Positions 47,239-62,937 of a stretch of DNA of 64,000 nt are shown here, one piece after another. This DNA is from Spirochaetia bacterium. Its GTDB lineage: Bacteria > Spirochaetota > Leptospiria > Leptospirales > Leptonemataceae. Position 1 is the first letter of the stretch. Each line of letters begins with the position of its first letter. The stretch covers positions 1-64,000 of the forward strand of contig VFLI01000063.1 of assembly GCA_009885105.1 (NCBI GenBank). The letters run 5' to 3'. The notes under the pieces are model-generated. The model saw only the letters and a program-made list of their open reading frames with translations. It ran no database searches and was not told the DNA's origin. The translations under genes were made by a program, and so were the position numbers.

Positions 47239-47892
47239 TCACTTTGTCCCGAACATCCTGTCTCCCGCATCGCCGAGCCCCGGAAGAATATATCCGTCCT
47301 TATTCAATTCCCTGTCCAGACTGGCTGAGAAAATTTTTATATCAGGATGCGCCTGCGAAAGACGGGTAACGCCCTCCGGTGATGATATTATAGACACATA
47401 CATTATTTTATTTATATTTATTTCCTTAAGTTTCTGCACTGCGGCGACGGCAGATCCCCCCGTCGCAAGCATGGGATCCAGCAGAAAAACGGTCCGTGAC
47501 TGGCAGTTCCCTGGAATCTTAAAAAAATAACTTTTTGGCTCCAGAGTTTCCTCATCTCTGTACATTCCGATATGACCGACTCTGGCCCCCGGCAGAAGAC
47601 ACAGAAAGGCGTCCACCATGCCGAGACCGGCGCGCAGGATAGGCAGAATCGCCGGTTTTTTTCCTGTGATTACCGGAGCCATGAACTCTTCCAGCGGCGT
47701 TCTGACCATTTCAACGCCGAGTGGAAGATCGCTGGTCGCCTCATACGCCATCAGAAGCGTGATTTCATGCACCAGTTCCTTGAATTTTTTTTTGCTCGTC
47801 GAAACATCCCGAAGCTTTGTCAGCTTGTGCTTGATCAAGGGATGATCCATTTCAAAGAAGTTGCGAAATACAGCATGCTGTTTTACAGGCAT
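47239..47892 (-). CDS. upp: Uracil phosphoribosyltransferase
   Basis: The 217-aa enzyme makes UMP from uracil and PRPP. Motifs: HPLIKHKLTKLRD at the N-terminus, PVITGKKPAILPILRAGLGMVD, PRPP loop LLDPMLATGGSAVAAV, and the uracil-binding GLGDAGDRMFGT at the C-terminus. ATG 47892 follows AAAGGATAC; the alternative ATG 47850 would match E. coli Upp length better, so the first 14 residues may be an extension. The radical SAM gene follows after 36 bp. With cdd and punA at 60-61 kb it is part of nucleoside and base salvage. Confidence 0.95.
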   Translation of the reverse strand: MPVKQHAVFRNFFEMDHPLIKHKLTKLRDVSTSKKKFKELVHEITLLMAYEATSDLPLGVEMVRTPLEEFMAPVITGKKPAILPILRAGLGMVDAFLCLLPGARVGHIGMYRDEETLEPKSYFFKIPGNCQSRTVFLLDPMLATGGSAVAAVQKLKEININKIMYVSIISSPEGVTRLSQAHPDIKIFSASLDRELNKDGYILPGLGDAGDRMFGTK

Positions 47893-48030
47893 GTATCCTT
47901 TATTTCAATAGGGGTTGGAGAACACTACAAAAAAATACAGCTCTATACAAGAGATTAGCCCGGAGTCACAGAGAGCACGGAGGGAAGAAAGAAAAAAAGC
48001 CGCGGCAATCCGCAGCTTCGCTTCTTTGAG

Positions 48031-48105: not shown

Positions 48106-50970
48106 CTAGGGACAGCCCACGCAGGTAAAATCGGAGCCGTTGTTCGAGTCGGTATTTCTTTGCAAATAGTTACCGGTGGTACCGCCGACATAGCTCGAAC
48201 AGGCATTCTGTATATCGCCATCGTTGAAGCTGTCCACAGGGAAAATACCGTTCAGATTGTATGCTGACGTCATTGTGGCCAGGTCACGAAAACCGCCGGT
48301 TACAAGATCCGCGGGAATGTCGCCGTCGCGGTTGGAATAACACATGATATCCATTGGAGTGGAAGTTAAGTCATAGGAAGCAAAAACAATCAGATCTGTT
48401 CCTGCGACGCCTGGAACGGGGGAGAAAACCTGCCATGTACTGTTGGCGGCCAGTCCGCTGACAATGGCGCCGGGATTTGCTGTTATGCTGTATGTTTGTA
48501 TCGCCGACAAACGTTGGTCTTCAGGAGTCACAGACGGCGCCAGGCACGGTGCATCGCATGACTGGTTCAAAGTTACCTGAATATACTGGCCCGCTGTGAT
48601 CAGAACATCGCCCATCCTGTAAATCAGAAGCGGTGATGGATTGGTATAATCATAATAATATATACCGAGTTTGTTTAGAGTTCCTGTACTAAGAGCGTAA
48701 AGGACAATTATGTCCTGGCTTCCCGACTGCGAGGGATACACTCTTTCGATTCTGACTGTGGCATTTGCATTCCCATGACCCTCAATGCTTACACTGCCCC
48801 CGGCAGCGAATCCTCCTGTAACATCATTTCCATTTGATTGTACAGTTAGTGTATGGATGGAGTTCTGTGTTTGCGCATTCGTAGTGACAAGCAGCCGCGA
48901 AGAATCGGTGGGATCGATCACTGAGGCACAGGGTGCAGTACAAAACCCCCCGCAGACAAAGGATTCTGTGCCCGGACAGTTAGAATTTACGGTAGGAACA
49001 GTCAGCATGGCCCAGCGCATCTGTATTGTTGCAGTTGTGGATGATGTAGAAAAGGCATACAGAGGTATATTAGTAAAATTATTAATTCCATTGTAAGATT
49101 TTGAAGCTGCCGTCGGGAATGTGGAATTGCCGCTGTAGTTCGGCGTTCCGATAGTACACTGAGTCCAGATATTGCTGCCGCCATACAGGCATTGGCGATA
49201 GAGATCACCGATCTGACCGGTGCCATTCAAATAGTACAGACCGGAATTGTCACAGAACGGGGCCACTGCGTCATTGTTGCAGTTGTTTCCATTGGAGGTG
49301 AACCAGCTGCCCGGACTGGTGCCGAGCATGGCCGTGCCGGTGGTCGGATGGAAAAATCTTTCCATCGAATGCACGCGTTTATTGAAAGAATCCAGTTTGC
49401 CGGCCACAGGAGGATCGCCATTTCCCGCCTGGTCAATGAGGTTCATGGCAACATCATACAGCCTGATATTCATAGCGGAGCTGTTCAGACTGAAGTTTTT
49501 CGCGCCGGAAATTTTATTGTCCATACTGTCGATGGCGCCATTGGCGACTTTGAGCAGGAAATAACCGTTTGCCGGAATGATCAGCCGGCCCGGGCCCAGA
49601 TGTCGTGTCGCCACACCGGGCTCATACCAGTTGAATTCATCCGGAATCGGGTAATGGCCTGTTTCTCTAGTATCCCAGGTGATGGTCCAGTGACTCATGT
49701 CGATATCGCGGTTTGTCATGTTCCGGAACTCAATCCAGTCATCGTTTGCGTCGAGTGACGTTCCTGTGTAAGAGCCTGCATACATCACTTCGGATATTAC
49801 AATATCGCCCGAAAACGCCACATCGCCCGATGGATGCCTCAACTGATTTTGAATTGGTTTTGAGACATCCCAGATACCCTGCCACTGTTTCTGAAGTTCC
49901 TGGGCGACCCAGGGCGAGTGAATGACCATCATGTTTTCGTCATTGTTCTCCACCGCGTTGTTGGACCAGTTGAAAGATCCTGTGCTCACTATGGCGCCGT
50001 CGATAATTAATGTCTTTGTGTGCAGTTTCCCGCCATGCGATTTAAGACCTGGAATCGCCGTATTCTCATTTCCGTCCTCGCGGTTGAATGGTCCTGCTGC
50101 CATGTAGCGGCCTGCATTGTACAGACGTGGCGCCTCTTCGGACGTGCCGGCGATGAATGTTGAATCGTGTATACCGCGGACGAGAACTCCTCTTTTGGCG
50201 GCCCGGATCAGCGCGGATGTCATTTCATCATGGGTGAAAGCGAATATCATGAACTGGATTTCCCGCTGCGCGCCGTTGATCAGCTGGATAATTCTGTTCA
50301 TTGCGTCTTTTCCGTCATAAGGACTGAAATAAAGCTCCACAGGAGTAAAATTCACCATATGCGAATGGTTTGTTGTAAAAGGAACCTTCTGGGCGCCGTA
50401 TCTTCCATAGTACATCTGTTCAAATTCGCGCGTGTAGTCGCGGCTGAGCGATGTCGATTCGATTATCATAAAATTATTATTATTTTTTCTCAGATCCGTG
50501 TCCGTGAAGTTTGCCGTCCCCATAAAGAGGTATTTTGAATCGATCACGGCGAATTTATTGTGATGAATGGCGGTTGAGTTCCCGATTGAGAATGGGATCG
50601 TGGTGCGGAGAATCTGCCGATACCCTTCCGTGACGGCTTCGTCCACATCCCCCACCAGACGGATCGGTATATTTCTTTCGTCAGCAGCCATGACGGCATC
50701 GATGATAGACTGTCTTCCCAGATTGTACACCGCCATATCAATCCTGTACTGAGCCTGATCCAGAAGTTCAACGAGTTTCAAATCGACTTTCTTGTCGACC
50801 ATGGTCTGTTCGGATGTTCCCGGCTCGTTGTAAAACACCTGAAACCGTTCATTCCCCAGAAGCCAGTAGCCTGGATCGCTCCAGATATCATTGCCCAGAT
50901 GATTTGTGCATGCAAAGGACGCGAAGGATAAAATCAACAATGTTGAGATTTTTTCTATTGTCGTTTTCAT
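48106..50970 (-). CDS. Phospholipase D-like lipoprotein with lamin-tail domain
   Basis: The 954-aa protein has a lipoprotein signal ending SFASFAC (Cys21). It has two intact HKD motifs, HHNKFAVID (His137, Lys139, Asp144) and LHTKTLIID (His317, Lys319, Asp324), so the PLD fold (about 45-370) is probably active, on phospholipid or nucleic acid. A lamin-tail domain follows at about 390-540 (VISEVMYAGS...WIEFRNMTNRDIDMSHW). The remaining 400 residues are Cys-containing, Asn/Thr/Gly-rich beta repeats. The frame is open to 51129, but ATG 50970 has a TAGGAAA site. It sits 8 bp downstream of the beta-barrel gene in a three-gene operon. Confidence 0.82.
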   Translation of the reverse strand: MKTTIEKISTLLILSFASFACTNHLGNDIWSDPGYWLLGNERFQVFYNEPGTSEQTMVDKKVDLKLVELLDQAQYRIDMAVYNLGRQSIIDAVMAADERNIPIRLVGDVDEAVTEGYRQILRTTIPFSIGNSTAIHHNKFAVIDSKYLFMGTANFTDTDLRKNNNNFMIIESTSLSRDYTREFEQMYYGRYGAQKVPFTTNHSHMVNFTPVELYFSPYDGKDAMNRIIQLINGAQREIQFMIFAFTHDEMTSALIRAAKRGVLVRGIHDSTFIAGTSEEAPRLYNAGRYMAAGPFNREDGNENTAIPGLKSHGGKLHTKTLIIDGAIVSTGSFNWSNNAVENNDENMMVIHSPWVAQELQKQWQGIWDVSKPIQNQLRHPSGDVAFSGDIVISEVMYAGSYTGTSLDANDDWIEFRNMTNRDIDMSHWTITWDTRETGHYPIPDEFNWYEPGVATRHLGPGRLIIPANGYFLLKVANGAIDSMDNKISGAKNFSLNSSAMNIRLYDVAMNLIDQAGNGDPPVAGKLDSFNKRVHSMERFFHPTTGTAMLGTSPGSWFTSNGNNCNNDAVAPFCDNSGLYYLNGTGQIGDLYRQCLYGGSNIWTQCTIGTPNYSGNSTFPTAASKSYNGINNFTNIPLYAFSTSSTTATIQMRWAMLTVPTVNSNCPGTESFVCGGFCTAPCASVIDPTDSSRLLVTTNAQTQNSIHTLTVQSNGNDVTGGFAAGGSVSIEGHGNANATVRIERVYPSQSGSQDIIVLYALSTGTLNKLGIYYYDYTNPSPLLIYRMGDVLITAGQYIQVTLNQSCDAPCLAPSVTPEDQRLSAIQTYSITANPGAIVSGLAANSTWQVFSPVPGVAGTDLIVFASYDLTSTPMDIMCYSNRDGDIPADLVTGGFRDLATMTSAYNLNGIFPVDSFNDGDIQNACSSYVGGTTGNYLQRNTDSNNGSDFTCVGCP

Positions 50971-50978
50971 ATGGTTTC

Positions 50979-52823
50979 CTAAAATATCAGCTTTGTGCCC
51001 AGCTGAAAACCGACAAACCGCGTGCTGCCCTGCGGTGTTCCCTGAACAAGGCCCGGCGTGCTGTAATAGCGCATGGGAACAAAAACGCCGTACGTCATCC
51101 AGATTTTCCAGTTTGGGATGGCCTCCCATTCCGCGCCAAAATCGTATTCTTCTCCCATGGGCGCGCCAAATCTTCTGGCCGCCTGCATGACTGTGTTTTG
51201 ATTGGGATAGATCGGCGCGGCTACCATCAGCAAAATGTTCTGAGATATTGTATTGCCGCGGTCTTTATTGTTGAATATTCCACCCAGGCCGGGACTGCCG
51301 GTGTCGTACAGTACAACTCTATTTGTGTCAACAAGCCGCCACCAGTCAAATTTCAGATAGAAATTCCGGAGAATTCCCAGGGCCACTCCCACATGTTTTA
51401 CTTCCGTGCCCGATTTTCTGTCCCTGTCGTACGGAGTGTCATAGATGCCGGATGACGATGTATACGCGGTTGGATGAATTCCGTAATACAGGTCGGTCAA
51501 GAGCCCCCCGGCATGCGCTGCTTTGAATCCTACAAAACCGTGAGAAAATTGCGAACCATCAGCATAATACCTTCCGCCCTGGGCGTAAAAATATGATCCA
51601 AGAAGGAGGATTCGCCTGTTGAAAAACGACAGTTCCACTTCGCCCATGTACGCCTTGCCGTTATTATCCACATCCTGGGGAAGATAGGTCACTGATAGTT
51701 TTTTTCGATCGATACCGTAGCTCTGCGACACAGTCAGGGCCGTGCGCAGCCAGGATCGGTATCCCGCGTTTACTTTTACACCGCGCATGCCGGAGAAATC
51801 GTTGTCCGTAAAATTTCCCGATGTGCCATTGTTGGTTCTGTCCGCTCCGCCGTTGGAAACCCCGGCCACATTCACGCCGCCGAATTTCGCAACATAAGCA
51901 AAAGCACGGGCTTCCAGGTGCGTGCCTCCCAGATCCGCATCGCCAATGATTGGAAATCTGTATAGCAAACCGGACCGCGCCGTATTGACATCGCCGTTAA
52001 AATGCTTCACTTTCTCGGCATCATAACTGATATACTGAACAAAATTTGCGTTCTGCGTATTGGTTGCATTATTGTAAACATCAATGATGATCGCGTCCAT
52101 TCGGCCGAATTTTCCGTACCATCGAAACACAACTGCGTCCAGAATATCATCCAGAAGAAAATCCTTGTCGATACGGCCTCCGATAGTATAGTACTGTCTT
52201 CCAAAACGAATATCCGCGCGCGATGCCCTGGTGGGCTCTTTTTTCAGGTGAATGTCCAGATGCATCAGTCCAAAGTTCACAGTGTTCGCGCCATTTCGCG
52301 TCAATTTCAGGTCGTTGTTGGTATCGCGTCCTCCCAGCTGATCATGCCCCCAGAAACCGGTGCGCCAGACATCCACGCGAAAATCGAGCCTGGGATGAAT
52401 CGGGAAAAAAGCATCCAGTTCAACGCCGGAGACTCCGAACATCGTGCGATCATCCGTATTGTCGACGCTTGTTTCGTTGGAATTGTCCAGCTTTCGCAGA
52501 TCGGCGTTGTTAAAGTAGTTCATCGAAGTCCAGAACAGAAGCCGCCACTGGATTCTCTTAATCAGACTTTTCTTGGCCTCCGGATCAAGATCAAAAACAT
52601 TTTCATCGTAGGCAAAATCGTAGCTTTCACCGTCGGCTCCGGTACCGGGAGCTGCGACATCCTCGGCTTTTTTTTCCTGGGCAGCGGATCGTCTGTCCAG
52701 AGTTTCTGCTGCTTCTCCGGTTTCAGATCGGCCAAACTCATCCGCGAAGACGGTAGTGGCGAAAAAAGAAATTAGAACAACTGCCGGGATCGTAAAAATT
52801 GCCCGAATATAAAGTATTTTCAT
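50979..52823 (-). CDS. Predicted outer membrane beta-barrel protein, 614 aa
   Basis: The protein has a signal peptide (MKILYIRAIFTIPAVVLISF, cleaved near VFADEF), a charged Glu/Ala/Asp-rich linker (about 28-85), then alternating amphipathic strands with many Tyr, Phe, Trp and Asn (FWTSMNYFNNADLRKLDN, LDFRVDVWRTGFWGHDQ). It ends in VGFQLGTKLIF, the terminal-Phe signature of BamA substrates. The fold resembles alginate-export-type or long-chain transport barrels; I cannot name it. It is likely a partner of the flanking PLD/lamin-tail lipoproteins, which it separates by 39 and 8 bp. The ribosome site is weak (AGGA about 12 nt before ATG). Confidence 0.75.
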   Translation of the reverse strand: MKILYIRAIFTIPAVVLISFFATTVFADEFGRSETGEAAETLDRRSAAQEKKAEDVAAPGTGADGESYDFAYDENVFDLDPEAKKSLIKRIQWRLLFWTSMNYFNNADLRKLDNSNETSVDNTDDRTMFGVSGVELDAFFPIHPRLDFRVDVWRTGFWGHDQLGGRDTNNDLKLTRNGANTVNFGLMHLDIHLKKEPTRASRADIRFGRQYYTIGGRIDKDFLLDDILDAVVFRWYGKFGRMDAIIIDVYNNATNTQNANFVQYISYDAEKVKHFNGDVNTARSGLLYRFPIIGDADLGGTHLEARAFAYVAKFGGVNVAGVSNGGADRTNNGTSGNFTDNDFSGMRGVKVNAGYRSWLRTALTVSQSYGIDRKKLSVTYLPQDVDNNGKAYMGEVELSFFNRRILLLGSYFYAQGGRYYADGSQFSHGFVGFKAAHAGGLLTDLYYGIHPTAYTSSSGIYDTPYDRDRKSGTEVKHVGVALGILRNFYLKFDWWRLVDTNRVVLYDTGSPGLGGIFNNKDRGNTISQNILLMVAAPIYPNQNTVMQAARRFGAPMGEEYDFGAEWEAIPNWKIWMTYGVFVPMRYYSTPGLVQGTPQGSTRFVGFQLGTKLIF

Positions 52824-52862
52824 TTCTATATATATCCTAAATATTTATTCTTTTTAACGATT

Positions 52863-54329
52863 TCAAGAATTGGGTCCGCCCAGGGTGAAGGTCGCCGTTT
52901 GTTGAAAATCCGTCGGTTGATTGGTGTCAGTGCCGTTGGGAATGCGTTTGATGCCGACTGGATTGCCGGTGATATTTGTTATACAGCTTCCTTTTTGCCA
53001 GATTCCGGCATACTGGGCCGGACTGGCGCCGGACTGGCCTCCGCAATTTACGTTGGTCGCGTTCGTCGTCCATTCTATATAATCTATGATGGTCTGCCCA
53101 TCGTCCTGATAGAGCCGCGCGGAACTTGTGTCAGAGATACCCCCGGTTGAAACGATCCGCACCAGAGCTTTGCCGTCAGAAAAATCCTGATCATCCGCGT
53201 ACTGTACTGGCGCTGCATCTCGGTTTGCTTCAGAGTTGAAGCGGGCGATAGTCAAATACCCGCCAGGCGGCAGCGTCGTCAGCGAAGTTGTGCCAGGCGT
53301 ATATCCGATTATGACGCTGGAGTTGGCTGTAAAAGGAGAGGGATTATTGGAAACAGAAATACTGGCGCTGGAAATCTGCCAGCCTCGGATATCAATGGTC
53401 TCAGCAGTTGTGTTGTAAATTTCAATGAGTTCCGGGCTGTTGGCACCGCCATCGGTGCCTGTCGGATCAAAGAAAACTTCATTCAACAGAACTTTGTTCC
53501 GGTAATCGCCAAAACGAGGCGCGCCGTTCATGTGAGTCCATGTCAGCATGTGCGGAACGGGAAACCAGGAACCGGCCGGATCCTGCGGAGATTCGGGATA
53601 GAACCGGGATTCGATACGTATTGGCGGCGACAGCCAGTCCGGATCCACCGCTCTGTAGAACGTGTTGCCTGCTTTGGAAGCGGTGCTGCTGATCACACGA
53701 TTGTCATTGTATCGTGGATCGTAAAAACTATAAAAAACGCCCACGTACAGATCGAACATCTGCCTGTCGCCCACGGCATTGGTGGTGCTGGAAAAGGTCT
53801 GGTATTCCCCCTGGTAATTCTGCGGAGTGCCGGTGCTGTCGGCGACGTACACTTTCATATAATACTTGTCGGCCAATTTATTGAAGGGACGCGGCGGGTG
53901 CCGTTCCAGGTAATAAGTGCCGGCAAATCCCAGATCGTGTGAAAAACCAAAACCCTGAATACAGGACTTAGATTCAACAGTCGAACAGGTGGAACCGGAA
54001 CAGCATCGGGCAAAAGGATCGGCGCCGACATTGAAGACCCATACAGCAATAAAAGAAGCTTCTGTATACATGGGATTTGATTTGAATTCAAGATTGTTGA
54101 TTGTGACTTTTATATTGCCCGTGTCGTCGAAGTCGACATATCCCTGATCCATCAGCAGACCCTCTCCGGGGAACGCTTTGTCTGCAAGCAGGTCGAGGTT
54201 GTTGCTGCAGGAGATGGAGAGGAGAAGAAGGCAGAGCCACAGAGTCACGGAGAACACAGATAGGATGCGGAAGGATTCACCGCGGAGACGCTGAGGGCGA
54301 ACCTGCAGATTTTTCCCGGATTTATTCAT
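52863..54329 (-). CDS. Lamin-tail-domain lipoprotein
   Basis: The 488-aa protein has a long signal sequence ending SISC (Cys41). A unique domain of about 230 residues follows, including a Cys-rich patch (CCSGSTC...CIQG). A lamin-tail domain runs at about 279-440 (VLLNEVFFDPTG, ELIEIYNTTAETIDIRGWQISS) and a C-terminal RIPNGTDTNQPTDF-type motif. Residues about 11-36, including most of the hydrophobic core of the signal, are encoded by a copy of the dispersed repeat (54221-54300). Internal GTG codons at 54257 and 54248 would give a shorter signal without basic residues, so ATG 54329 is kept. It is the first gene of the lamin-tail/barrel/PLD operon. Confidence 0.75.
   Translation of the reverse strand: MNKSGKNLQVRPQRLRGESFRILSVFSVTLWLCLLLLSISCSNNLDLLADKAFPGEGLLMDQGYVDFDDTGNIKVTINNLEFKSNPMYTEASFIAVWVFNVGADPFARCCSGSTCSTVESKSCIQGFGFSHDLGFAGTYYLERHPPRPFNKLADKYYMKVYVADSTGTPQNYQGEYQTFSSTTNAVGDRQMFDLYVGVFYSFYDPRYNDNRVISSTASKAGNTFYRAVDPDWLSPPIRIESRFYPESPQDPAGSWFPVPHMLTWTHMNGAPRFGDYRNKVLLNEVFFDPTGTDGGANSPELIEIYNTTAETIDIRGWQISSASISVSNNPSPFTANSSVIIGYTPGTTSLTTLPPGGYLTIARFNSEANRDAAPVQYADDQDFSDGKALVRIVSTGGISDTSSARLYQDDGQTIIDYIEWTTNATNVNCGGQSGASPAQYAGIWQKGSCITNITGNPVGIKRIPNGTDTNQPTDFQQTATFTLGGPNS
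54221..54300. repeat. Repeat-derived segment inside the lipoprotein 5' end (copy C)
   Basis: On the minus strand the segment contains GTCTCCGCGGTGAATCCTTC, then TCTGTGTTCTCCGTGACTCT. The first part matches the right arm of copy E (GTCTCTGCGGTGAATCTTC). It is read in frame as RLRGESFRILSVFSVTLWLC. Confidence 0.65.
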
Positions 54330-54425
54330 TATAACCCACCAATTGCTGTTTTTTGCCTGCGCCGACAGGAAATTCCAGTCGATTTTTCCATTGACACATC
54401 TGGAATACCAGAGGATACGTCATTC

Positions 54426-54849
54426 ATGGCGATTATCACGATTTCCCGCGCCTTGCGTGAAAAGCTTGGCGACCAGGGCGCTGATGGCCTGGCAGATACG
54501 CTTTCCAAGCTCGAAGGTGAATTCAAAGAAAACGTCATAGAGGTAGTTCTCCCTGCGTTTTGAAAACAAACTGTCCCAGGAACTGGGGCTTTTTCGCGCG
54601 GAACTTCAAAAGAAATTCTCAGAACATGATCATCAGTTTTCTGAGATACAGAAACAGTTTTTAGAGATACAAAAGCAATTTTCAGAAATCCACAGGCTGT
54701 TTTCGGAGGTTCATAAGGAATTTTCCGGTGTTCACAAAGCCATTGCCGCCCAGACCAAGTGGATTGTTGTAATCTTTCTCGGCGCCGCCACTTTAATTTC
54801 ATTGGTCCTACCGTTCGTCTGGCGTATCGCTGCAAGAGTGATTCCCTGA
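54426..54849 (+). pseudogene. Coiled-coil tail-anchored protein, split by a +1 frameshift
   Basis: ATG 54426 opens MAIITISRALREKLGDQGAD..., which reads to a stop at 54561-54563. The following frame from about 54553 continues RFENKLSQELGLFRAELQKK with heptad-like repeats (FSEIQKQFLEIQKQF..., FSEVHKEF) and ends with a C-terminal membrane segment (WIVVIFLGAATLISLVLPFV) at a stop at 54847. One extra C in CCC at 54551-54553 would explain the break; without it the product is about 140 aa. It resembles the leptospiral LA_3696-like / Bdr-like coiled-coil proteins anchored by a C-terminal helix. It is either a true pseudogene, a sequencing error or slippage. It is transcribed against the surrounding lipoprotein genes. 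Confidence 0.7.
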
Positions 54850-54855
54850 AAAGAA

Positions 54856-55026
54856 TTTCACGCAGAGAAATTTGAGGGCGCGCAGCGTTCATTGGCAAAC
54901 ATTGTTGCCATGAAAAAACGCGAAAAAACGCGAAAAAAAATGCTCCTTCCTGCCCATTTCGTGCCCTTTCGTGAAGTTTCGTGGCTCTGGTTTCTTCCTC
55001 AGCTCTCTTTGCGTCTCTGCGGTGAA
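54856..55026. repeat. Dispersed palindromic repeat, copy E, composite
   Basis: TTTCACGCAGAGAAA starts the left arm and GCGTCTCTGCGGTGAA (55011-55026) ends the right arm. Between them lies a second repeat type: GCGAAAAAACGCG tandem units and TTTCGTGCCCTTTCGTGAAG, which recurs in reverse at 41394. It begins 7 bp after the coiled-coil pseudogene stop. Confidence 0.7.
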
Positions 55027-55283
55027 TCTTCATATTATTTATCAGGGTTCCGTGCCGTTTGTTTGAATTGGGACTCTCATTTTTTCCGCCAGTTCCTCCG
55101 GCGTCTCAGATACTACATATTCTATTTCGATTTTATCAATTACTTTCATTATTATTAATTCTTCGTATTCTCAAGGTTGCGCCGCATCGACTGTTCCGCG
55201 GGGTGTTGTTGTGGCACTCTGTGCATTGAAATCAGATGAATATACATTCGTATCGATATCTCTCATTTTTATCATTTCCCTGT
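55027..55283. other. Remaining intergenic sequence before the 1549-aa gene stop
   Basis: A/T-rich sequence of 257 bp between copy E and the 3' end of the 1549-aa lipoprotein gene. It holds one possible small ORF (55042-55149) and no recognised RNA gene or terminator. Confidence 0.5.
55042..55149 (-). CDS. Possible small protein, 35 aa
   Basis: ATG 55149 opens MKVIDKIEIEYVVSETPEEL and continues for 15 more residues to a TGA at 55042-55044. GAAGAA about 11 nt upstream could act as a ribosome site. The sequence has protein-like composition (alternating strand, acidic helix), not repeat-like composition. It could be a small regulator or the remnant of a larger gene. Evidence is limited to the reading frame. 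Confidence 0.25.
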   Translation of the reverse strand: MKVIDKIEIEYVVSETPEELAEKMRVPIQTNGTEP

Positions 55284-58200
55284 CTAAGGACACGCTGCTG
55301 TACCACTATTGTTTGGCGCTGCGGGCGCGACATTGGTAGAAAAGTTAACATTATTTGCATCAGTATCCGTTCCTTTGCAGGCTCCCCCTCTCTGGGTGGA
55401 TTGACCCGCCGCAAACGTAGCCGCTGCCACGCCATTCTCAGTATCCGTCACAGTGCCAAATCCAACAAAATCAATGACATTGTTTGCCGCGGCAGTAGTT
55501 GGCTGCGTTGAAGAAAATGCCAGCGCCACACAGGCGTTCGTTGCCATTGCCGTCAAAATCGTAGAATCCGCTGAGATAGTATTGCTCGCCCGAGATACCA
55601 GAAAATATCCATGTGAAGCTACGGAGGAGGCAGGGAGAGCTGTAAACTGTGTCCAGCCGCCGCTGAGACCGCAACTGGAATCGCGACCCAGATAATATCC
55701 ACTCATACTGACGCTGGCTGCCGTAGGATTGTATATCTCGACATAGTCATTGTTTGCATTTGCTCCATAAGTATCACCGACTTCGGTAATCAACAAACCC
55801 GCAACCGGAATAAATTTCACGGTACTTGTGGCATTTGTGCCGGATGGATTCGTGATCTGAACATCCCAGCCGGTCGCGCCATTGGTCCGAATACCGGCAG
55901 GGAATGTGGCTGTGATCGTTGTGCCTGAGTCCACGGTGAAGGTGGTCGCATTTGTAGCCGTAAGGTTGTTTACTTTTACGACAGTAGCTCCCGTAAAATT
56001 CGTTCCCGTGATCGTAACGGTCGCCGTCCCGGTATTGTACGGTGTGGTGCCGTTGTTGGGGCTGGTTCCCGTCACAACGACATTGGTAACGGTGGGCGCT
56101 GTCGCTGCGTTCACCACAGTGAATGAAAAAGAATTCGTGCTGGGAGCAATACCCAGAGTGCTTATAAAGCTGTTCAAGGTGACGCCCACACTTTCTCCAT
56201 TGTCAGTAAAATCCGCAGGATTGATTGTGCATCGATCATTTGCAAACGTAACCGTGTCCCAGACACAGGTGAGGCCGTTTTGCGCGCCCGAAGAAGTTCC
56301 CACGACATTGACTGTACCAAAACCGGTGTTCATGGATTCCGTAAAGGTCAGCACAACATTCGCTGTTTTTACAACGCTGGTCGCGCCGTCAACCGGGCTT
56401 GAAGAAAAGCCCGGCAGTCCGTTCAAGAGACCCACTGTGGCGGTTTTTGTCTGGAAGTCGGCGGCGTTGCTGTTCGTATCCGTTCCATCGGGTATCCGCG
56501 AAACAGCCGTGTTGCTAGCCGCAATAGTCGGAGCCACGAGTCCGTTTTCCGTATCTGTAGCGCCGACGGTGGCGACCCAGTCGATGACGTGAGAGTCGCC
56601 CGCCGCTGTGACAGATGTATTGCCCTGAGTCAGAACCACGCAATCCCCGCCGCCCAGAGAGCCCAGATCGGTCTGGTTCACATTAGAAAGAGTGTTGCCG
56701 ATGCGCGAAATGATATAGTATCCGTTTGCAGGGATTGTTCCGGTCAGAGCGATTTTTTCCGAGACGCCATTGCTCAGATTGCAGCTCGAGTCCCGCTGGA
56801 TGTAATAATCGGCCGCCAGAAGATCTACGGGACTGGAAGTCATATTCACCAGTTCAATGAAGTCGTTTGCCACGGTACCCCCCATCTGGTTTCCTATCTC
56901 GTTGATTTTCAAATTGATCGATGGAACAGTTGTGAATTCGTACACAGCATCGGTTAACAAAGGTGTGCCTGTTCCGGCTATACCCTTCACTCCCGTGGTG
57001 ACTCGCACACAGAAGGTTTCAGATACGTCGAGAGTCGTCGATGGAGTAAATGAAACTGTATCATTCGTTATTGTTTTGGTTGAGAATGTGGCATTGGTAA
57101 GAGAGATCTCTCCGTTTGCGCAGATATCCGCGGTATCCTGAAAAAGTTTGATATTCGTGTTGGTTAACGTTGAAGTGTCCATGCCGACAGAAAACTGGAT
57201 CTTGATGCTTGTTCCGGGAAAGGATGTTCCCTGGTTTTTGGGACTTGTAGCCGAGCCTGAATACTGGTACACAAACGGAACCATTGCCCCCGGCGCCCGA
57301 CCCGGCGAAGCGCGTTCGCTGGCGAATAGAGTGTCGTGGAAGGCAAAAGCGCCCGTCTCCGATGCCCGAGCGTACGAATTTCTGTTCGTATCCGAATCGG
57401 GGTCGGCCAATGGAGGATAGGAAGCACAGTCAATTTCCGGAGCAGCGCCGGAACATGTTGTTGAAGCGCAACCGGCAGAGGTCGTGCAGAGTTTCACAGC
57501 GTCTGTGGCTCCGTTGCTCAATCCCAAATTTCCAGAGCTGGAAACATCGAACACAGATCCCGATATCGTTGGCGCTGTCCCGCCTCCGTAGATCACCATT
57601 CTCTGATTTGTGTTGAGAACAGTTCCGGCGGGGAAGGTATGCCGTACACTTGTGCTGTCTGTAATTACCTGACCCGAAAGATCGCAAACAGCCCCGGTGT
57701 TCTTTATTTCCACAAATTCGTCCTGGGTCGTATTCAATGTTCCGTCAAAATTCGGATCGGACAGTGTTGTAGACGGCGCTGCATGGAATTCAGTTATTTT
57801 CACATTGGGGAAGGCGCAAGGTATGGCAAAACCGTAGAAATTCGCAGTGGAAATAACCATGGGCGAGTTCTGGGCCGCGCTTCTGACATTGGACACGCAC
57901 ACCTTGTACTGGATACCGGCAGTTTGTGGATCGGTGGTGATTGTTGCCACATTCCCGGCCAGTGTGACTCCTCCTGTGACATTTAGAACGGGAGCTGAAC
58001 AACTTCCAGCAGCTGTGGTTATCTGATAATTCCCGGTGGTCGATGCAGCGCTATCCGGCGGCTCGGAAAAAGTCACCTCTACTGTGGTTGCTACAGTCGC
58101 TCTGGCAAAGATAACATTGAATTCTCGCACACCGGCAGCGCTGTTGGGCAGTCCCGGAGTGCCAAAGGTGCGGTCTGCGAAATCCTTACCGATATTATAA

Positions 58201-59933
58201 TTTGTCAAGAAATAGGAATTCGAATTTGTATGCCAGTTTGTGCCGGTTGCGCCAGATGTACGCAGATCGATTCTTTCCATGGAGCGAATGATTTTCGCAG
58301 TTGAGTCTGACAATCCAAAGAATGCATTGTTGCTTGAGAAGTTCTGCGATATTGCTCCGGCATAGTCTACAACAGTGCCGTTGATGTCCATCAGCCGACA
58401 TTGGTCCGTGCTCGTATTATTGATTACATTTGAACCGGTTCCTCCCCAGGTAAATTTCAAATGAGGCTGACCCACAACGGTTGCAGATGCGGAATTGTGC
58501 GTGAAAACCATGTACTGGCCGGGGCCGATCATCGTCTTTGTGGGAAGCGTAAAAATTGTTCCGTAAGAGCCGCTCGTGCGGCATTCGAATTTCCATCCGG
58601 AAAGATTCAATGCCTGACCGGAATTGTTGTACAGTTCGACATATTCATAAGGCGATGTGCTGAGATCATTTTTATACCCGCCCATCCAGTTTATTTCTGA
58701 GATCACAACTTCCATACCGTTGTCGGCCGGCATATCGTCGCCGCCTGTACTTGCCGAAACGAAAGACCTGGCCAGAAGCGCATCGTAAAATTGCGTGAAC
58801 TGAGAAACAAGTCCTGGATGATCGACAATCATCATAATACCGTCATGCGAGCTGTCCGCTTTTGCATTGTAAGGATGCGAAGAAACCAGAACAGTCGGCC
58901 GGGCGTTGTTGCTGTCTATGATCATAAAATTGAGTCCATTGGCCGACCAATCGCCGGGCATTACAGGAGAGGCAATGCCACGATTTCGAAGCCACAGACC
59001 GGACGTGACTGTGGGATCAGTGGTTGACGGGCAGTTCGCATCAGGATCTTTCCCTATCACACTCGAAGAAGCCCCCACCTCCGAAGACCATCCGGTGATT
59101 GACTGTTTGAATGTGGCTCTGCTGTTCAGTATTTCGTACGCAAGATCCGTCGCAATCCTGCATTTATTCGAATCCACTTTATTTGAAAAAAATTCAGAGG
59201 AGAAAAGACGGATCTTCCGCGCTTCTGCAATGCGTGGAATGATATAACTTTTTAGCGGATCTTCTTCCGGCGCGAAAAAAACTCCAACACTGGCGTCGCC
59301 AACCAGATAAAAATTCCTACGATTCAATCGCTGCTTGGCTGCGCCAAAGGAACCGTGCGTGATCAAATCCATCTCCACTGTGAACTTTCGCGCAATTCCG
59401 TCACGATCGCTCTGTATATAAGCCGAGTAGGCAGTCTGGGAATATATGCCCTGCATTGTCGGAGCGGCTGTTGAAATCCAGGCGGTTGTTTCATCCGCAA
59501 CGCAGAGGTTCAGATAATCCACTCCGGCGCCGGCATTGCCCGACCAGAGTTTCCTGTTTTCACCGGTGGCCGGCAGATACTGGCCGAGTATTCTGTATCC
59601 GCCCAACCCTCTGTTGTCATCGTCCAGCCCGACGCGAACATCGACACCACGAAGACGAGCCAGAAAAAGGGCGTCCAGTACGGGCTGCAGATTGATATCC
59701 TGGAAAGAACAGAAAAGTGTGGTCGAGGCTGTGCCGATTGTCAGTATCAGCGAATTCTCTATGGCCCGGCCGTTGGTGCCGGAGATGGAAAATGTGTTGG
59801 TCAGAACGGGCGAGCCGCCGTCAAAAAGCATGCTGAACAGATTCTGTGGATCGGCATGACTGCACCTGGAAAATGCAATCCCCGTGACCGCTAAAAGCAG
59901 AAAAACAACCGCTTTCCTAAAATTTTGCCTCAA
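55284..59933 (-). CDS. Giant lipoprotein: degenerate PLD module, four lamin-tail domains, Ig-like and TIG domains
   Basis: The 1549-aa protein has a lipobox at GIAFSRC (Cys24). Residues about 50-390 have PLD-like layout, but both HKD motifs are broken: His/Lys positions read Tyr140/Asn142 with Asp147, and Gly333/Asn335 with Asp340. Lamin-tail domains start at about 409 (VVISEINWMGG), 710 (VKITEFHAAP), 1007 (LKINEIGNQMG) and 1352 (LLITEVGDTYG). Big_5-like Ig domains lie at about 605-700, 890-1003 and 1165-1260, and a TIG/IPT domain at about 1265-1345. The start is TTG 59933 after GGGGGA. It is likely a surface adhesin or structural partner of the active PLD lipoprotein at 48.1 kb. Confidence 0.8.
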   Translation of the reverse strand: MRQNFRKAVVFLLLAVTGIAFSRCSHADPQNLFSMLFDGGSPVLTNTFSISGTNGRAIENSLILTIGTASTTLFCSFQDINLQPVLDALFLARLRGVDVRVGLDDDNRGLGGYRILGQYLPATGENRKLWSGNAGAGVDYLNLCVADETTAWISTAAPTMQGIYSQTAYSAYIQSDRDGIARKFTVEMDLITHGSFGAAKQRLNRRNFYLVGDASVGVFFAPEEDPLKSYIIPRIAEARKIRLFSSEFFSNKVDSNKCRIATDLAYEILNSRATFKQSITGWSSEVGASSSVIGKDPDANCPSTTDPTVTSGLWLRNRGIASPVMPGDWSANGLNFMIIDSNNARPTVLVSSHPYNAKADSSHDGIMMIVDHPGLVSQFTQFYDALLARSFVSASTGGDDMPADNGMEVVISEINWMGGYKNDLSTSPYEYVELYNNSGQALNLSGWKFECRTSGSYGTIFTLPTKTMIGPGQYMVFTHNSASATVVGQPHLKFTWGGTGSNVINNTSTDQCRLMDINGTVVDYAGAISQNFSSNNAFFGLSDSTAKIIRSMERIDLRTSGATGTNWHTNSNSYFLTNYNIGKDFADRTFGTPGLPNSAAGVREFNVIFARATVATTVEVTFSEPPDSAASTTGNYQITTAAGSCSAPVLNVTGGVTLAGNVATITTDPQTAGIQYKVCVSNVRSAAQNSPMVISTANFYGFAIPCAFPNVKITEFHAAPSTTLSDPNFDGTLNTTQDEFVEIKNTGAVCDLSGQVITDSTSVRHTFPAGTVLNTNQRMVIYGGGTAPTISGSVFDVSSSGNLGLSNGATDAVKLCTTSAGCASTTCSGAAPEIDCASYPPLADPDSDTNRNSYARASETGAFAFHDTLFASERASPGRAPGAMVPFVYQYSGSATSPKNQGTSFPGTSIKIQFSVGMDTSTLTNTNIKLFQDTADICANGEISLTNATFSTKTITNDTVSFTPSTTLDVSETFCVRVTTGVKGIAGTGTPLLTDAVYEFTTVPSINLKINEIGNQMGGTVANDFIELVNMTSSPVDLLAADYYIQRDSSCNLSNGVSEKIALTGTIPANGYYIISRIGNTLSNVNQTDLGSLGGGDCVVLTQGNTSVTAAGDSHVIDWVATVGATDTENGLVAPTIAASNTAVSRIPDGTDTNSNAADFQTKTATVGLLNGLPGFSSSPVDGATSVVKTANVVLTFTESMNTGFGTVNVVGTSSGAQNGLTCVWDTVTFANDRCTINPADFTDNGESVGVTLNSFISTLGIAPSTNSFSFTVVNAATAPTVTNVVVTGTSPNNGTTPYNTGTATVTITGTNFTGATVVKVNNLTATNATTFTVDSGTTITATFPAGIRTNGATGWDVQITNPSGTNATSTVKFIPVAGLLITEVGDTYGANANNDYVEIYNPTAASVSMSGYYLGRDSSCGLSGGWTQFTALPASSVASHGYFLVSRASNTISADSTILTAMATNACVALAFSSTQPTTAAANNVIDFVGFGTVTDTENGVAAATFAAGQSTQRGGACKGTDTDANNVNFSTNVAPAAPNNSGTAACP

Positions 59934-60119: not shown

Positions 60120-60542
60120 TCAGGGGACTAAAAAAGGCTTGCTGAAAGGCATGATTTCCGTCATGGATTTTTTTTCCGCATCGACCGGACCGCCATTTAC
60201 TGTAGTTAAATAGACTACTGCCTGGCGCCCGAATTCCAGAATACTCTGGCGGCAGATACCGCAGGGATGGACCGCTTCAGGTGTGTCCGTAACGATCAAT
60301 ATTTCAGTAATCTCTCTTTCTCCGGCCGTGACAGCGCTTCCAATGGCCGTGCGTTCTGCGCATATTGTGCCGCCGTAACTGATATTTTCTACATTGCAGC
60401 CCGAATAGATGCGTCCGCTGGAGCATCGAAGCGCAGCGCCGACCAGGAATCGAGAGTAAGGAGCATACGCATTCAGCCGGGCCGCGGATGCCTGTTGATA
60501 GAGTTCTTCCACCAGCGACTTTTCATCATTGTTGAATTTCAT
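60120..60542 (-). CDS. cdd: Cytidine deaminase
   Basis: The 140-aa zinc enzyme converts cytidine and deoxycytidine to uridine forms. Motifs: YAPYSRFLVGAALRCSSG, NVENISYGGTICAERTAI with Cys61 and catalytic Glu63, and PCGICRQ with Cys94 and Cys97. The frame is open to 60575, overlapping punA, but ATG 60542 (MKFNNDEKSLV) follows AGGG at about 7 nt and matches the family N-terminus. It follows punA after 19 bp, forming a nucleoside salvage unit. Confidence 0.95.
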   Translation of the reverse strand: MKFNNDEKSLVEELYQQASAARLNAYAPYSRFLVGAALRCSSGRIYSGCNVENISYGGTICAERTAIGSAVTAGEREITEILIVTDTPEAVHPCGICRQSILEFGRQAVVYLTTVNGGPVDAEKKSMTEIMPFSKPFLVP

Positions 60543-60561
60543 TAGAATACCCTGCAAATAC

Positions 60562-61380
60562 CTACATTTGGGCAATGGCTCGATGCATCAGCCGAACAAA
60601 AGCATCCATGACATTTCCGGCCGTATGTGTGACTTCATCGTGGGAAAGATTCCCGGTAAGTATACCGGCGCCCATATTTGTGATGCAGGACAGTCCGGCC
60701 GTTTCCAAACCGATATGCCGCGCGGCGATGGCTTCCGGCACGGTGGACATGCCGCAGGCATCCGCGCCGAGGATTCTGTACATTTTTATTTCTGCCGGAG
60801 TTTCGTACGCGGGCCCCGGCACGGCAATATACACACCCTGCCGCAGAGGAATCTTTTCCGCCGACGCAGCATCCACAAAAATCTTACGGATACGGGCGCT
60901 GTAAACTTCCGTCAGATCCGGAAACCGGGAACCCAGTCTTTCATCATTGGCGCCTGTCAGCGGATTCTGACCCGTGCAGTTCAGATGATCTGTTATCAGC
61001 ATCAGGTCTCCCGGCGCATATGCGGTGTTCACGGCGCCGGCCGCATTTGTCAGAAGAAGTTTTTTTATGCCGAGAGCGCGAAGAACCCGGATGGGAAACA
61101 CAACCTGCTTTGCGGAGTATCCTTCATATAAATGGAAACGACCCTGCATGACGAGGATCGGCTTGCCTGAAAAATTCCCGGTCACCAGCCGGCCGCGGTG
61201 ACCTTCCACCGTCGATACGGGAAAGTTGGGAATCTCAGAATATTCCAGAGCTTTTGTTTCTGTAAGACGATCCGCAAACGGGCTCAGTCCCGATCCCAGA
61301 ACAACAGCCAGGTCACCGGTAACCGGGAGAATTTTCTGAATGCGTTTCGCGGATTCTTCTATTTCGTAATAACCAGGCAC
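60562..61380 (-). CDS. punA: Purine nucleoside phosphorylase (trimeric PNP)
   Basis: The 272-aa enzyme splits purine nucleosides with phosphate. Family motifs: LAVVLGSGLSPFAD, VEGHRGRLVTG, GRFHLYEGYSAKQV, LTNAAGAVN, GPAYETPAEI, GADACGMSTVPEAIAARH and NMGAGI. The length and motifs fit the trimeric PNP-II class, not hexameric DeoD. It sits between cdd and the phosphohexomutase; phosphorolysis of nucleosides gives ribose-1-phosphate. Confidence 0.94.
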   Translation of the reverse strand: MPGYYEIEESAKRIQKILPVTGDLAVVLGSGLSPFADRLTETKALEYSEIPNFPVSTVEGHRGRLVTGNFSGKPILVMQGRFHLYEGYSAKQVVFPIRVLRALGIKKLLLTNAAGAVNTAYAPGDLMLITDHLNCTGQNPLTGANDERLGSRFPDLTEVYSARIRKIFVDAASAEKIPLRQGVYIAVPGPAYETPAEIKMYRILGADACGMSTVPEAIAARHIGLETAGLSCITNMGAGILTGNLSHDEVTHTAGNVMDAFVRLMHRAIAQM

Positions 61381-61423: not shown

Positions 61424-62779
61424 TTATTTCAATCCGAATTCCCGCAGTTTGCCAAGAACAAGTTCCTGTATTTCAGACAGCCTGGCGTCTGTTGAGGCTT
61501 CGAACCGGCAGACGATTTCAGGCTGCGTGTTGGAGGCGCGAACCAGTCCCCAACCGTCGCCGAACTGAATGCGCACTCCGTCCACATCGATGCATTTGTA
61601 TGCTTTCTTAAAGTATTCCGACGCCCCTTTTGATATGCGGAATTTTATCTCGTCGTTCTCACACTCAAAACGCAGCTCCGGCGATGATTTGTAGGAAGGC
61701 AGTTCGTCAAACAGGTCTGACAGTTTCTTTGTGGAATTGGATAGCAGACGCAGAACGCGCGCGGCCACATAAATCGCGTCATCAAAGCCAAAAAACTCGT
61801 CTGCCAGGAAAATATGCCCGCTGAGCTCGCCGCCGAGTTTGCAGCTCATTTCCTTCATTTTCTTTTTCAGAATCGAATGTCCTGTCGCGGACATTACGGG
61901 AATGCCTCCCAGTTTGACCAGGACGTCTTCCAGAGCCTGAGAACACTTCACATCGTAGACAACTTTGTCGTTTTTCCCGATGATTTCTTTCGCAAGGATG
62001 GCCATGAGAAGGTCGGCCCAGATGATGCGTCCTTTATCATCCACAACTCCAACCCGGTCCGCATCGCCGTCAAAAGCGATTCCGGCATCGTACGATCCTT
62101 TCTTCATTTCCGCAATCAGATCTTTGAGATTCTTTTCCACTGTGGGGTCGGGATGATGGTTCGGGAATCGTCCGTCGACATCGCAGTACAGCTCTTTCAC
62201 ATCCACGCCGAGTTTCTTGAATATTTCAGGGGCCAGAAGCGCTCCGGCCGCGTTTCCGCAGTCCATCACGATTTTCATTTTTTTGCTGAGCTTGATCTTC
62301 TCCAGAATCATGGCCACATACTGTTTTCTTATATCAAGGCTGCTGTCTGTGCCGGCGCCGGATGTAAAATCGTTTTCTTCTATATATTTGCGGATTGTCT
62401 GTATGTCCGGACCGAATACGGCCGCTCTGCGAAGCGAAAGCTTGAAACCGTTGAATTCCGGCGGATTGTGACTGCCCGTGATCTGCACGGCCCCGTCTAT
62501 ATCGACAACGTACATGCTGTAGTAGTTGACCGGCGTCGGAAGAATGCCCAGATCTACCGTATCAACGCCCGCGGCATGAAGTCCTTTCTTGAATGCATTT
62601 ACAAGCGAAGGCGTGCTCAATCGAACATCGCCGCTGACGCCTATTTTTTTCGCGTTGTTGCGGATAAGAAAGGTCCCGAATCCCCGGCCCAGAAGCTCGG
62701 TCACATCAAGGCCCAGATCGTCATCGACCTTCCCCCGGATATCGTATTCTCTAAATATGTGGGTGTTCACTTTTATCAT
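61424..62779 (-). CDS. Phosphomannomutase/phosphoglucomutase
   Basis: The 451-aa protein belongs to the alpha-D-phosphohexomutase family: REYDIRG near the N-terminus, catalytic phosphoserine loop TGSHNPPEFNGFK, metal loop FDGDADRVGVVD, sugar-binding GELSGHIF, and phosphate-binding RASNTQPEIVCRFEA. It interconverts hexose-1-phosphate and hexose-6-phosphate, feeding cell-surface glycans; the PMM/PGM AlgC-type is the closest. The open frame to 62824 runs into repeat copy F, so the start is ATG 62779 (MIKVNTHIF). The punA and cdd genes follow. Confidence 0.92.
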   Translation of the reverse strand: MIKVNTHIFREYDIRGKVDDDLGLDVTELLGRGFGTFLIRNNAKKIGVSGDVRLSTPSLVNAFKKGLHAAGVDTVDLGILPTPVNYYSMYVVDIDGAVQITGSHNPPEFNGFKLSLRRAAVFGPDIQTIRKYIEENDFTSGAGTDSSLDIRKQYVAMILEKIKLSKKMKIVMDCGNAAGALLAPEIFKKLGVDVKELYCDVDGRFPNHHPDPTVEKNLKDLIAEMKKGSYDAGIAFDGDADRVGVVDDKGRIIWADLLMAILAKEIIGKNDKVVYDVKCSQALEDVLVKLGGIPVMSATGHSILKKKMKEMSCKLGGELSGHIFLADEFFGFDDAIYVAARVLRLLSNSTKKLSDLFDELPSYKSSPELRFECENDEIKFRISKGASEYFKKAYKCIDVDGVRIQFGDGWGLVRASNTQPEIVCRFEASTDARLSEIQELVLGKLREFGLK

Positions 62780-62797
62780 ATGTTTTCGGAAGAAGAA

Positions 62798-62937
62798 TTT
62801 CACGCGGAGGCGCGGAGGACGCAAAGAAGAGGAAATATTAAAAAAAAATCGGGACGTTGGGTATTCGTTCCGGGACGCTTATCCGCCAGTTTACTTTCTC
62901 CTTTCTTCCCCTGCGATCTTTGCGTCTCTGCGTGAAA
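62798..62937. repeat. Dispersed palindromic repeat, copy F
   Basis: The left end TTTCACGCGGAGGCGCGGAG (62798-) and right end CTTTGCGTCTCTGCGTGAAA (62918-62937) are inverted. The centre has CGTTCCGGGACGCTT (62866-62880), identical to copy A. It fills the gap between the BMC gene stop and the phosphohexomutase start. Confidence 0.75.

Follow-up and report, generated by a model that had tools for sequence, protein, structure and literature searches.

A candidate surface cassette for nucleic-acid utilization in Spirochaetota that joins phospholipase D and lamin-tail lipoproteins to an outer-membrane-type barrel

Four genes in the stretch of spirochaetal DNA analyzed here (64,000 nucleotides of contig VFLI01000063.1, hereafter the window) belong to a real gene system that recurs in multiple lineages and is undescribed in the open literature searched; the kind of function is known, and the machinery is new. 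From genomic inference, we consider that the cluster is probably a cell-surface cassette for nucleic-acid utilization, one that would combine degradation with uptake across the outer membrane. DNA and RNA outside cells make up major nutrient pools and, to our knowledge, the outer-membrane passage of nucleic-acid fragments larger than nucleosides is poorly known. The computed results cover which genes are present, whether their motifs are intact or dead, the lipoboxes, linkage and co-occurrence, the agreement of the trees, and the nucleic-acid genes linked to the cassette in relatives.

Table 1. The cluster and its neighbors in the window (PLD, phospholipase D; LTD, lamin-tail domain)
Feature	Coordinates	Strand	Remarks
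Phosphoglucomutase/phosphomannomutase-type phosphohexomutase, substrate uncertain	61424..62824	-	below equivalog cut-offs
Purine-nucleoside phosphorylase (PNP), overlaps cytidine deaminase gene	60562..61380	-	NF006054 and TIGR01700 above cut-off
Cytidine deaminase, upstream neighbor	60120..60575	-	NF004064 and TIGR01354 above cut-off
1549-aa lipoprotein, pseudo-PLD subunit	55284..59933	-	lipobox ...FSRC, Cys24
488-aa LTD lipoprotein	52863..54329	-	beta-rich N-terminal domain and C-terminal LTD
614-aa predicted outer-membrane barrel, signal peptide	50979..52823	-	18 predicted long strands
954-aa PLD-LTD lipoprotein, predicted surface nuclease	48106..50970	-	Cys21, two PLD domains, one LTD
Terminator-like hairpin (10 bp) and T-rich tail	47996..48019	-	~90 bp past PLD-LTD stop
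Uracil phosphoribosyltransferase (UPRTase), downstream neighbor	47239..47892	-	TIGR01091 above cut-off

All four cluster genes lie on the minus strand, with coordinates unchanged from the earlier note (Table 1). That note described the last three as an operon with gaps of 39 and 8 bp, which holds for a PLD gene start at 50970 (MKTTIEK, with Cys21 in the lipobox); an open reading frame extended to 51129 would overlap the barrel gene. As read from the N-termini, the three LTD proteins carry lipoprotein signals and the barrel a cleavable signal. The LTDs attributed to all three lipoproteins are borne out by Pfam matches above cut-off in each, with one copy in the 488-aa, one in the 954-aa, and four in the 1549-aa protein; these are the only six LTD matches in the window's genome, a MAG that is ~78% complete. 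The hairpin past the PLD-LTD gene is probably the end of the cluster transcript, in a scan that was overall modestly above shuffles (24 hairpins found, shuffle mean 17.5).

In the window, 954 bp (54330-55283) separate the 1549-aa gene from the LTD lipoprotein gene. This gap is missing in relatives, in which the 1549-aa-type gene abuts or overlaps the LTD lipoprotein gene, and we therefore assign the 1549-aa gene to the same cassette. The plus strand of the gap contains an apparent frameshifted small coiled-coil/TM gene, so the gap is probably an insertion into the operon. A 234-aa open reading frame at 54329-55033 is probably not a gene; it has no family match, and the opposite strand is the apparent frameshifted coiled-coil remnant.

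The catalytic candidate is the 954-aa PLD-LTD protein. It has two PLDc_2 domains in Pfam (E 2.9e-47; 160 bits against a cut-off of 27), and its two motifs, HxKx4Dx6GTxN and HxKx4Dx6GSxN, are both intact, as in members of the PLD superfamily, which also includes phospholipases and cardiolipin synthases. Both HKD motifs and the lipobox Cys are invariant across 21 aligned PLD-LTD homologues, and the motifs are intact in 41/41 high-scoring PLD-LTD rows, some genes being counted under two locus identifiers. By sequence, the nearest solved relatives of the PLD domain are NucT, Nuc, and mitochondrial PLD/Zucchini-type proteins. The best NCBIfam models for the domain are likewise NucT, all below cut-off: the best of four NucT models scored 98 bits against an equivalog threshold of 297. 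NucT is an HKD nuclease that prefers single-stranded nucleic acids and has been implicated in purine salvage (PMC5714352). We predict that the PLD-LTD protein is a nuclease anchored at the cell surface. A defense system was considered and rejected; PADLOC matched only the generic PLD domain, plus one marginal LTD match, and the DISARM protein DrmC model scored 69.7 bits against a threshold of 133, with no DISARM partners seen. The C-terminal region of PLD-LTD (~residues 560-954; window 48109-49300) aligns only in Leptospirales homologues and has no Pfam match.

The 1549-aa protein had been described as a relative with a broken PLD module. Its N-terminal PLD module is indeed degenerate and lacks HKD catalytic residues (PLDc_2 is sub-threshold in Pfam, E 0.014), and two Big_5 stretches accompany its LTDs; what did not stand is the picture of a damaged neighbor, since the protein is a conserved dead paralogue within the system. 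The catalytic columns read YND... in place of HKD..., as they do in relatives' orthologues. Decay of the module was rejected because the orthologues share these substitutions and dead paralogues are also found in other lineages. Nearly every cassette has a second, divergent PLD beside the active one, whose first motif is missing the catalytic His, the catalytic Lys, or both in almost all aligned rows; the C-terminal motif is unaligned in most rows. Most Leptospirales and Turneriella-type genomes have Y-N-D in the first motif, Myxococcota have S-T-D or H-T-D, and Brevinematales have D-N-D. Judged by these motifs, the window's module is the Leptospirales version of a conserved dead PLD. Conserved dead hydrolase paralogues often bind substrate or regulate, and by analogy the dead PLD may have a substrate-binding or regulatory role.

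The 488-aa LTD lipoprotein has four conserved Cys (C109, C110, C115, and C123) in a conserved beta-rich N-terminal domain; its fold had no match, with a low-confidence model (pLDDT 57). LTDs occur in extracellular nucleases such as ExeM, which loses part of its activity without the domain (PMC6085458).

The 614-aa protein had been called an outer-membrane-type barrel, and structure prediction agrees: its AlphaFold model (pLDDT 76, pTM 0.76, built from 31 sequences) has 18 long strands, and Foldseek matched it to porins. The best match was AlgE (4azl, E 8e-15), followed by chitoporin, MOMP, and OprD/Occ. AlgE, the alginate exporter, has the 18-strand fold in common with the barrel (TM-score ~0.6 by target and ~0.45 by query), but the two share only ~10% identity, alginate genes are absent nearby, and a profile search of PDB with the barrel did not find AlgE. 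The barrel has no Pfam or NCBIfam match, nor any in Pfam even at E<1. TonB-dependent/SusC channels have 22 strands and a plug, whereas the barrel has 18 strands and no plug match. AlgE is a passive channel that conducts a linear polyanion; the modeled AlgE-like fold is compatible with oligonucleotide passage, which is not proof of it.

We searched 198 Spirochaetota genomes and found barrel homologues in 30. High-scoring (full-length) PLD-LTD homologues, defined as E below 1e-135, occurred in 27, and all 27 also had the barrel (Fisher 2.8e-30). Three weaker or contig-truncated PLD/LTD matches (G087, G067, and G052) came from genomes in which no barrel was detected. In the window's family together with its sister family, 8 genomes had both genes and 16 had neither (p 1.4e-6), so their presence is patchy and joint. 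The gene set recurs in many genomes and is not a product of chance.

The barrel and PLD-LTD genes are adjacent in four lineages, Myxococcota-like MAGs among them; the linkage evidence comes from few independent lineages. In Leptospirales relatives the order is pseudo-PLD/LTD, LTD lipoprotein, barrel, and PLD-LTD, all on the same strand, with junctions that are short or overlap. Turneriella-type genomes and Myxococcales/Lujinxingiaceae MAGs have barrel, LTD lipoprotein, dead PLD, and PLD-LTD. Longer gene runs contain the barrel and PLD-LTD genes in Brevinematales and other Spirochaetota. The scattered, unlinked homologues that would have spoken against a system were not seen in most lineages; in families f3-f5 one pair is unlinked yet co-inherited.

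The barrel and PLD-LTD trees have the same main groups, and the distances are correlated (r=0.935, 35 pairs; permutation maximum 0.21). As a control for shared species history, we swapped paralogues within genomes. For the seven genomes with two barrels and two PLD-LTDs, the true pairing was the best of 128, all 127 swaps lowering the correlation, and this signal holds even with one pair per genome unlinked. The barrel and PLD-LTD belong together and evolve as a pair. The unlinked second PLD-LTD genes of f3-f5 (L138-L148) are closer to the window's PLD-LTD than are the linked copies of the same genomes, and their clade is matched by an unlinked barrel clade.

The genes near the cassette in relatives point to nucleic acids. 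In Brevinematales and GWF1 spirochaete MAGs (L073, L096, L097, L134, and L135), a single run has PLD-LTD, two 5'-nucleotidase-family proteins, and the barrel; most of these runs continue with a dead PLD-LTD, Endonuclease I in one or two copies, a nucleoside transporter of the NupC/CNT type, and uridine kinase. A 5'-nucleotidase adjoins the barrel in L095 (G059), and the neighbor of an unlinked PLD-LTD gene (G048, L141) is a 5'-nucleotidase C-terminal-domain gene. Turneriella-type cassettes are followed by Endonuclease I (L126, L128, L129, L131, and L133). Thirteen genomes have some Endonuclease I together with a PLD-linked barrel, and in 9 of them the two lie within ~8 kb (binomial tail 7e-16 at an assumed 1% chance per genome, from only two or three independent lineages). 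The combination of nuclease, nucleotidase, and transporter known from Izemoplasma is present in Brevinematales relatives, partial in the Turneriella type, and represented in the window by salvage neighbors only.

Those neighbors are PNP and cytidine deaminase upstream of the cluster and UPRTase downstream, on the same strand. Across the 21 genomes of the window's family, PNP is found in 4 and UPRTase in 4. Salvage genes are absent beside the cassette in relatives, which gives no support to their being part of a conserved operon; because these flanks are local and not conserved, and because the hairpin separates UPRTase from the cassette, we give them modest weight. Leptospirales cassettes have no linked nuclease or nucleotidase except PLD itself, and no linked Endonuclease I or transporter. 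In the window's genome, at its ~78% completeness, neither Endonuclease I nor a UshA-type 5'-nucleotidase was detected; a CNT transporter is encoded on another contig. Across the phylum, CNT and the barrel are associated (p 3e-8). The association is absent when the window's family and its sister family are taken by themselves (5/8 versus 12/16, p 0.65), so it is most likely a matter of ancestry, and we dropped it as evidence.

We favor a nucleic-acid role because relatives' operons carry nucleic-acid genes and the PLD relatives are nucleases. From these data we infer the surface location, the nuclease activity, the physical complex, and the direction and identity of the cargo. The PLD-LTD lipoprotein would be an endonuclease anchored at the cell surface and cleaving extracellular DNA, RNA, or both. 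The dead paralogue and the LTD lipoprotein may hold substrate or scaffold an outer-membrane complex. The products, as oligonucleotides, nucleotides, or nucleosides, would reach the periplasm through the 18-strand barrel; there, in some lineages, digestion could be completed by Endonuclease I and 5'-nucleotidases, and the CNT transporter could import nucleosides for salvage. It is possible, and we stop short of calling it probable, that active PLD, dead PLD paralogue, and LTD lipoprotein are complexed on the channel and form an outer-membrane machine dedicated to the uptake of nucleic-acid fragments, in function a "Sus system" for DNA/RNA in Spirochaetota and Myxococcota relatives. The points against the nucleic-acid reading are the Leptospirales cassettes with no linked nuclease or nucleotidase beyond PLD, the missing Endonuclease I and UshA-type 5'-nucleotidase in the window's genome, the unshared salvage neighbors and the hairpin before UPRTase, the CNT distribution, the phospholipases and cardiolipin synthases of the PLD superfamily, the few independent lineages behind the linkage, a nearest barrel fold that exports an anionic polysaccharide, and, in f3-f5, one barrel clade and one PLD-LTD clade that are unlinked.

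An alternative hypothesis is that the surface nuclease complex clears DNA around the cell (biofilm dispersal, detachment, or protection from DNA traps) and does not serve nutrition, with the barrel anchoring or exporting the lipoproteins. This predicts the same surface nuclease, accords with the biofilm and NET roles discussed for the LTD nuclease ExeM (PMC6085458), and suits the Leptospirales cassettes, which have no linked uptake genes. We regard it as improbable; the Brevinematales run of nucleotidases, CNT transporter, and uridine kinase argues for use of the products.

The earlier note had suggested surface processing of DNA or phospholipid with the barrel as transporter or anchor. Its DNA option is favored by the genes linked in relatives (those for Endonuclease I, 5'-nucleotidases, a nucleoside transporter, and uridine kinase) and by the nuclease-type PLD relatives; nothing was found for phospholipid. 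In a further explanation, the substrate of PLD is phospholipid or some other phosphodiester polymer of the envelope, the AlgE-like barrel serves to export an anionic polymer or to move lipid, and the LTD proteins are envelope scaffolds; this would draw on PLD superfamily membership and on the best fold match being an alginate exporter. It appears quite unlikely, given that the nearest PLD relatives are nucleases and the recurring linked genes are nucleic-acid genes, whereas genes for lipid or polysaccharide synthesis did not recur next to the cassette. DNA uptake for natural transformation, with the nuclease cutting DNA at the surface and the barrel passing a strand inward, is very unlikely: NucT is linked to transformation besides purine salvage (PMC5714352), but no competence or pilus genes were recognized within cassettes, and the 5'-nucleotidases and nucleoside transporter point to DNA breakdown, not preservation.

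Several known systems resemble the proposed utilization cassette in part. Sus-type systems place polymer-degrading lipoproteins on the cell surface next to a channel through the outer membrane; the analogy is one of how they work. The barrel lacks a match to the TonB plug domain, and the cassette's lipoproteins are not related to SusD. NucT of Helicobacter pylori is likewise an envelope-associated PLD-family HKD nuclease, tied to purine salvage from extracellular DNA (PMC5714352). NucT is small, with one HKD motif per chain, whereas PLD-LTD has two HKD domains per chain, an LTD fusion, and a lipid anchor, and the cassette, unlike NucT, includes a dead paralogue and a dedicated barrel. ExeM of Shewanella (LTD, OB, and EEP) places an LTD in a membrane-associated, sugar-non-specific nuclease, but its catalytic domain is EEP and that of the cluster is PLD, and no barrel partner has been described for it (PMC6085458); in Pfam, the cluster proteins have LTDs and no EEP domain. 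In the extracellular-DNA degradation loci of "Ca. Izemoplasma," nucleases are clustered with phosphohydrolases and transporters of DNA parts, and LTD proteins appear in the scheme; these loci have different nucleases and no outer-membrane barrel, and the text of that study contains neither "Spirochaet" nor "phospholipase D" (PMC8289736). The remark that no system of this composition has been described holds for the open literature searched, subscription journals and preprints being mostly outside our coverage. The conserved nuclease-channel pair with its dead-enzyme partner is a concrete candidate for nucleic-acid fragment uptake, offers a likely function for barrel and LTD lipoprotein families previously without one, and points to spirochaetes as nucleic-acid scavengers.

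Turneriella-type loci have further genes around the cassette. An ECF-type sigma factor gene, possibly a regulator, lies a few kilobases upstream in two genomes (L071:11390-11971 and L078:11139-11720); in L071 the gene after it has an AMPK1_CBM domain. A ~330-aa lipoprotein is encoded between PLD-LTD and Endonuclease I (L071:1316-2311, L131:16736-17746, and L128:6864-7847), with no Pfam match for the L071 copy. Two loci from records titled Caldithrix sp. (L128 and L115) are nearly identical in the trees to Turneriella parva MAG sequences and were placed in the window's class as G095, so the organism name of the record is probably wrong.
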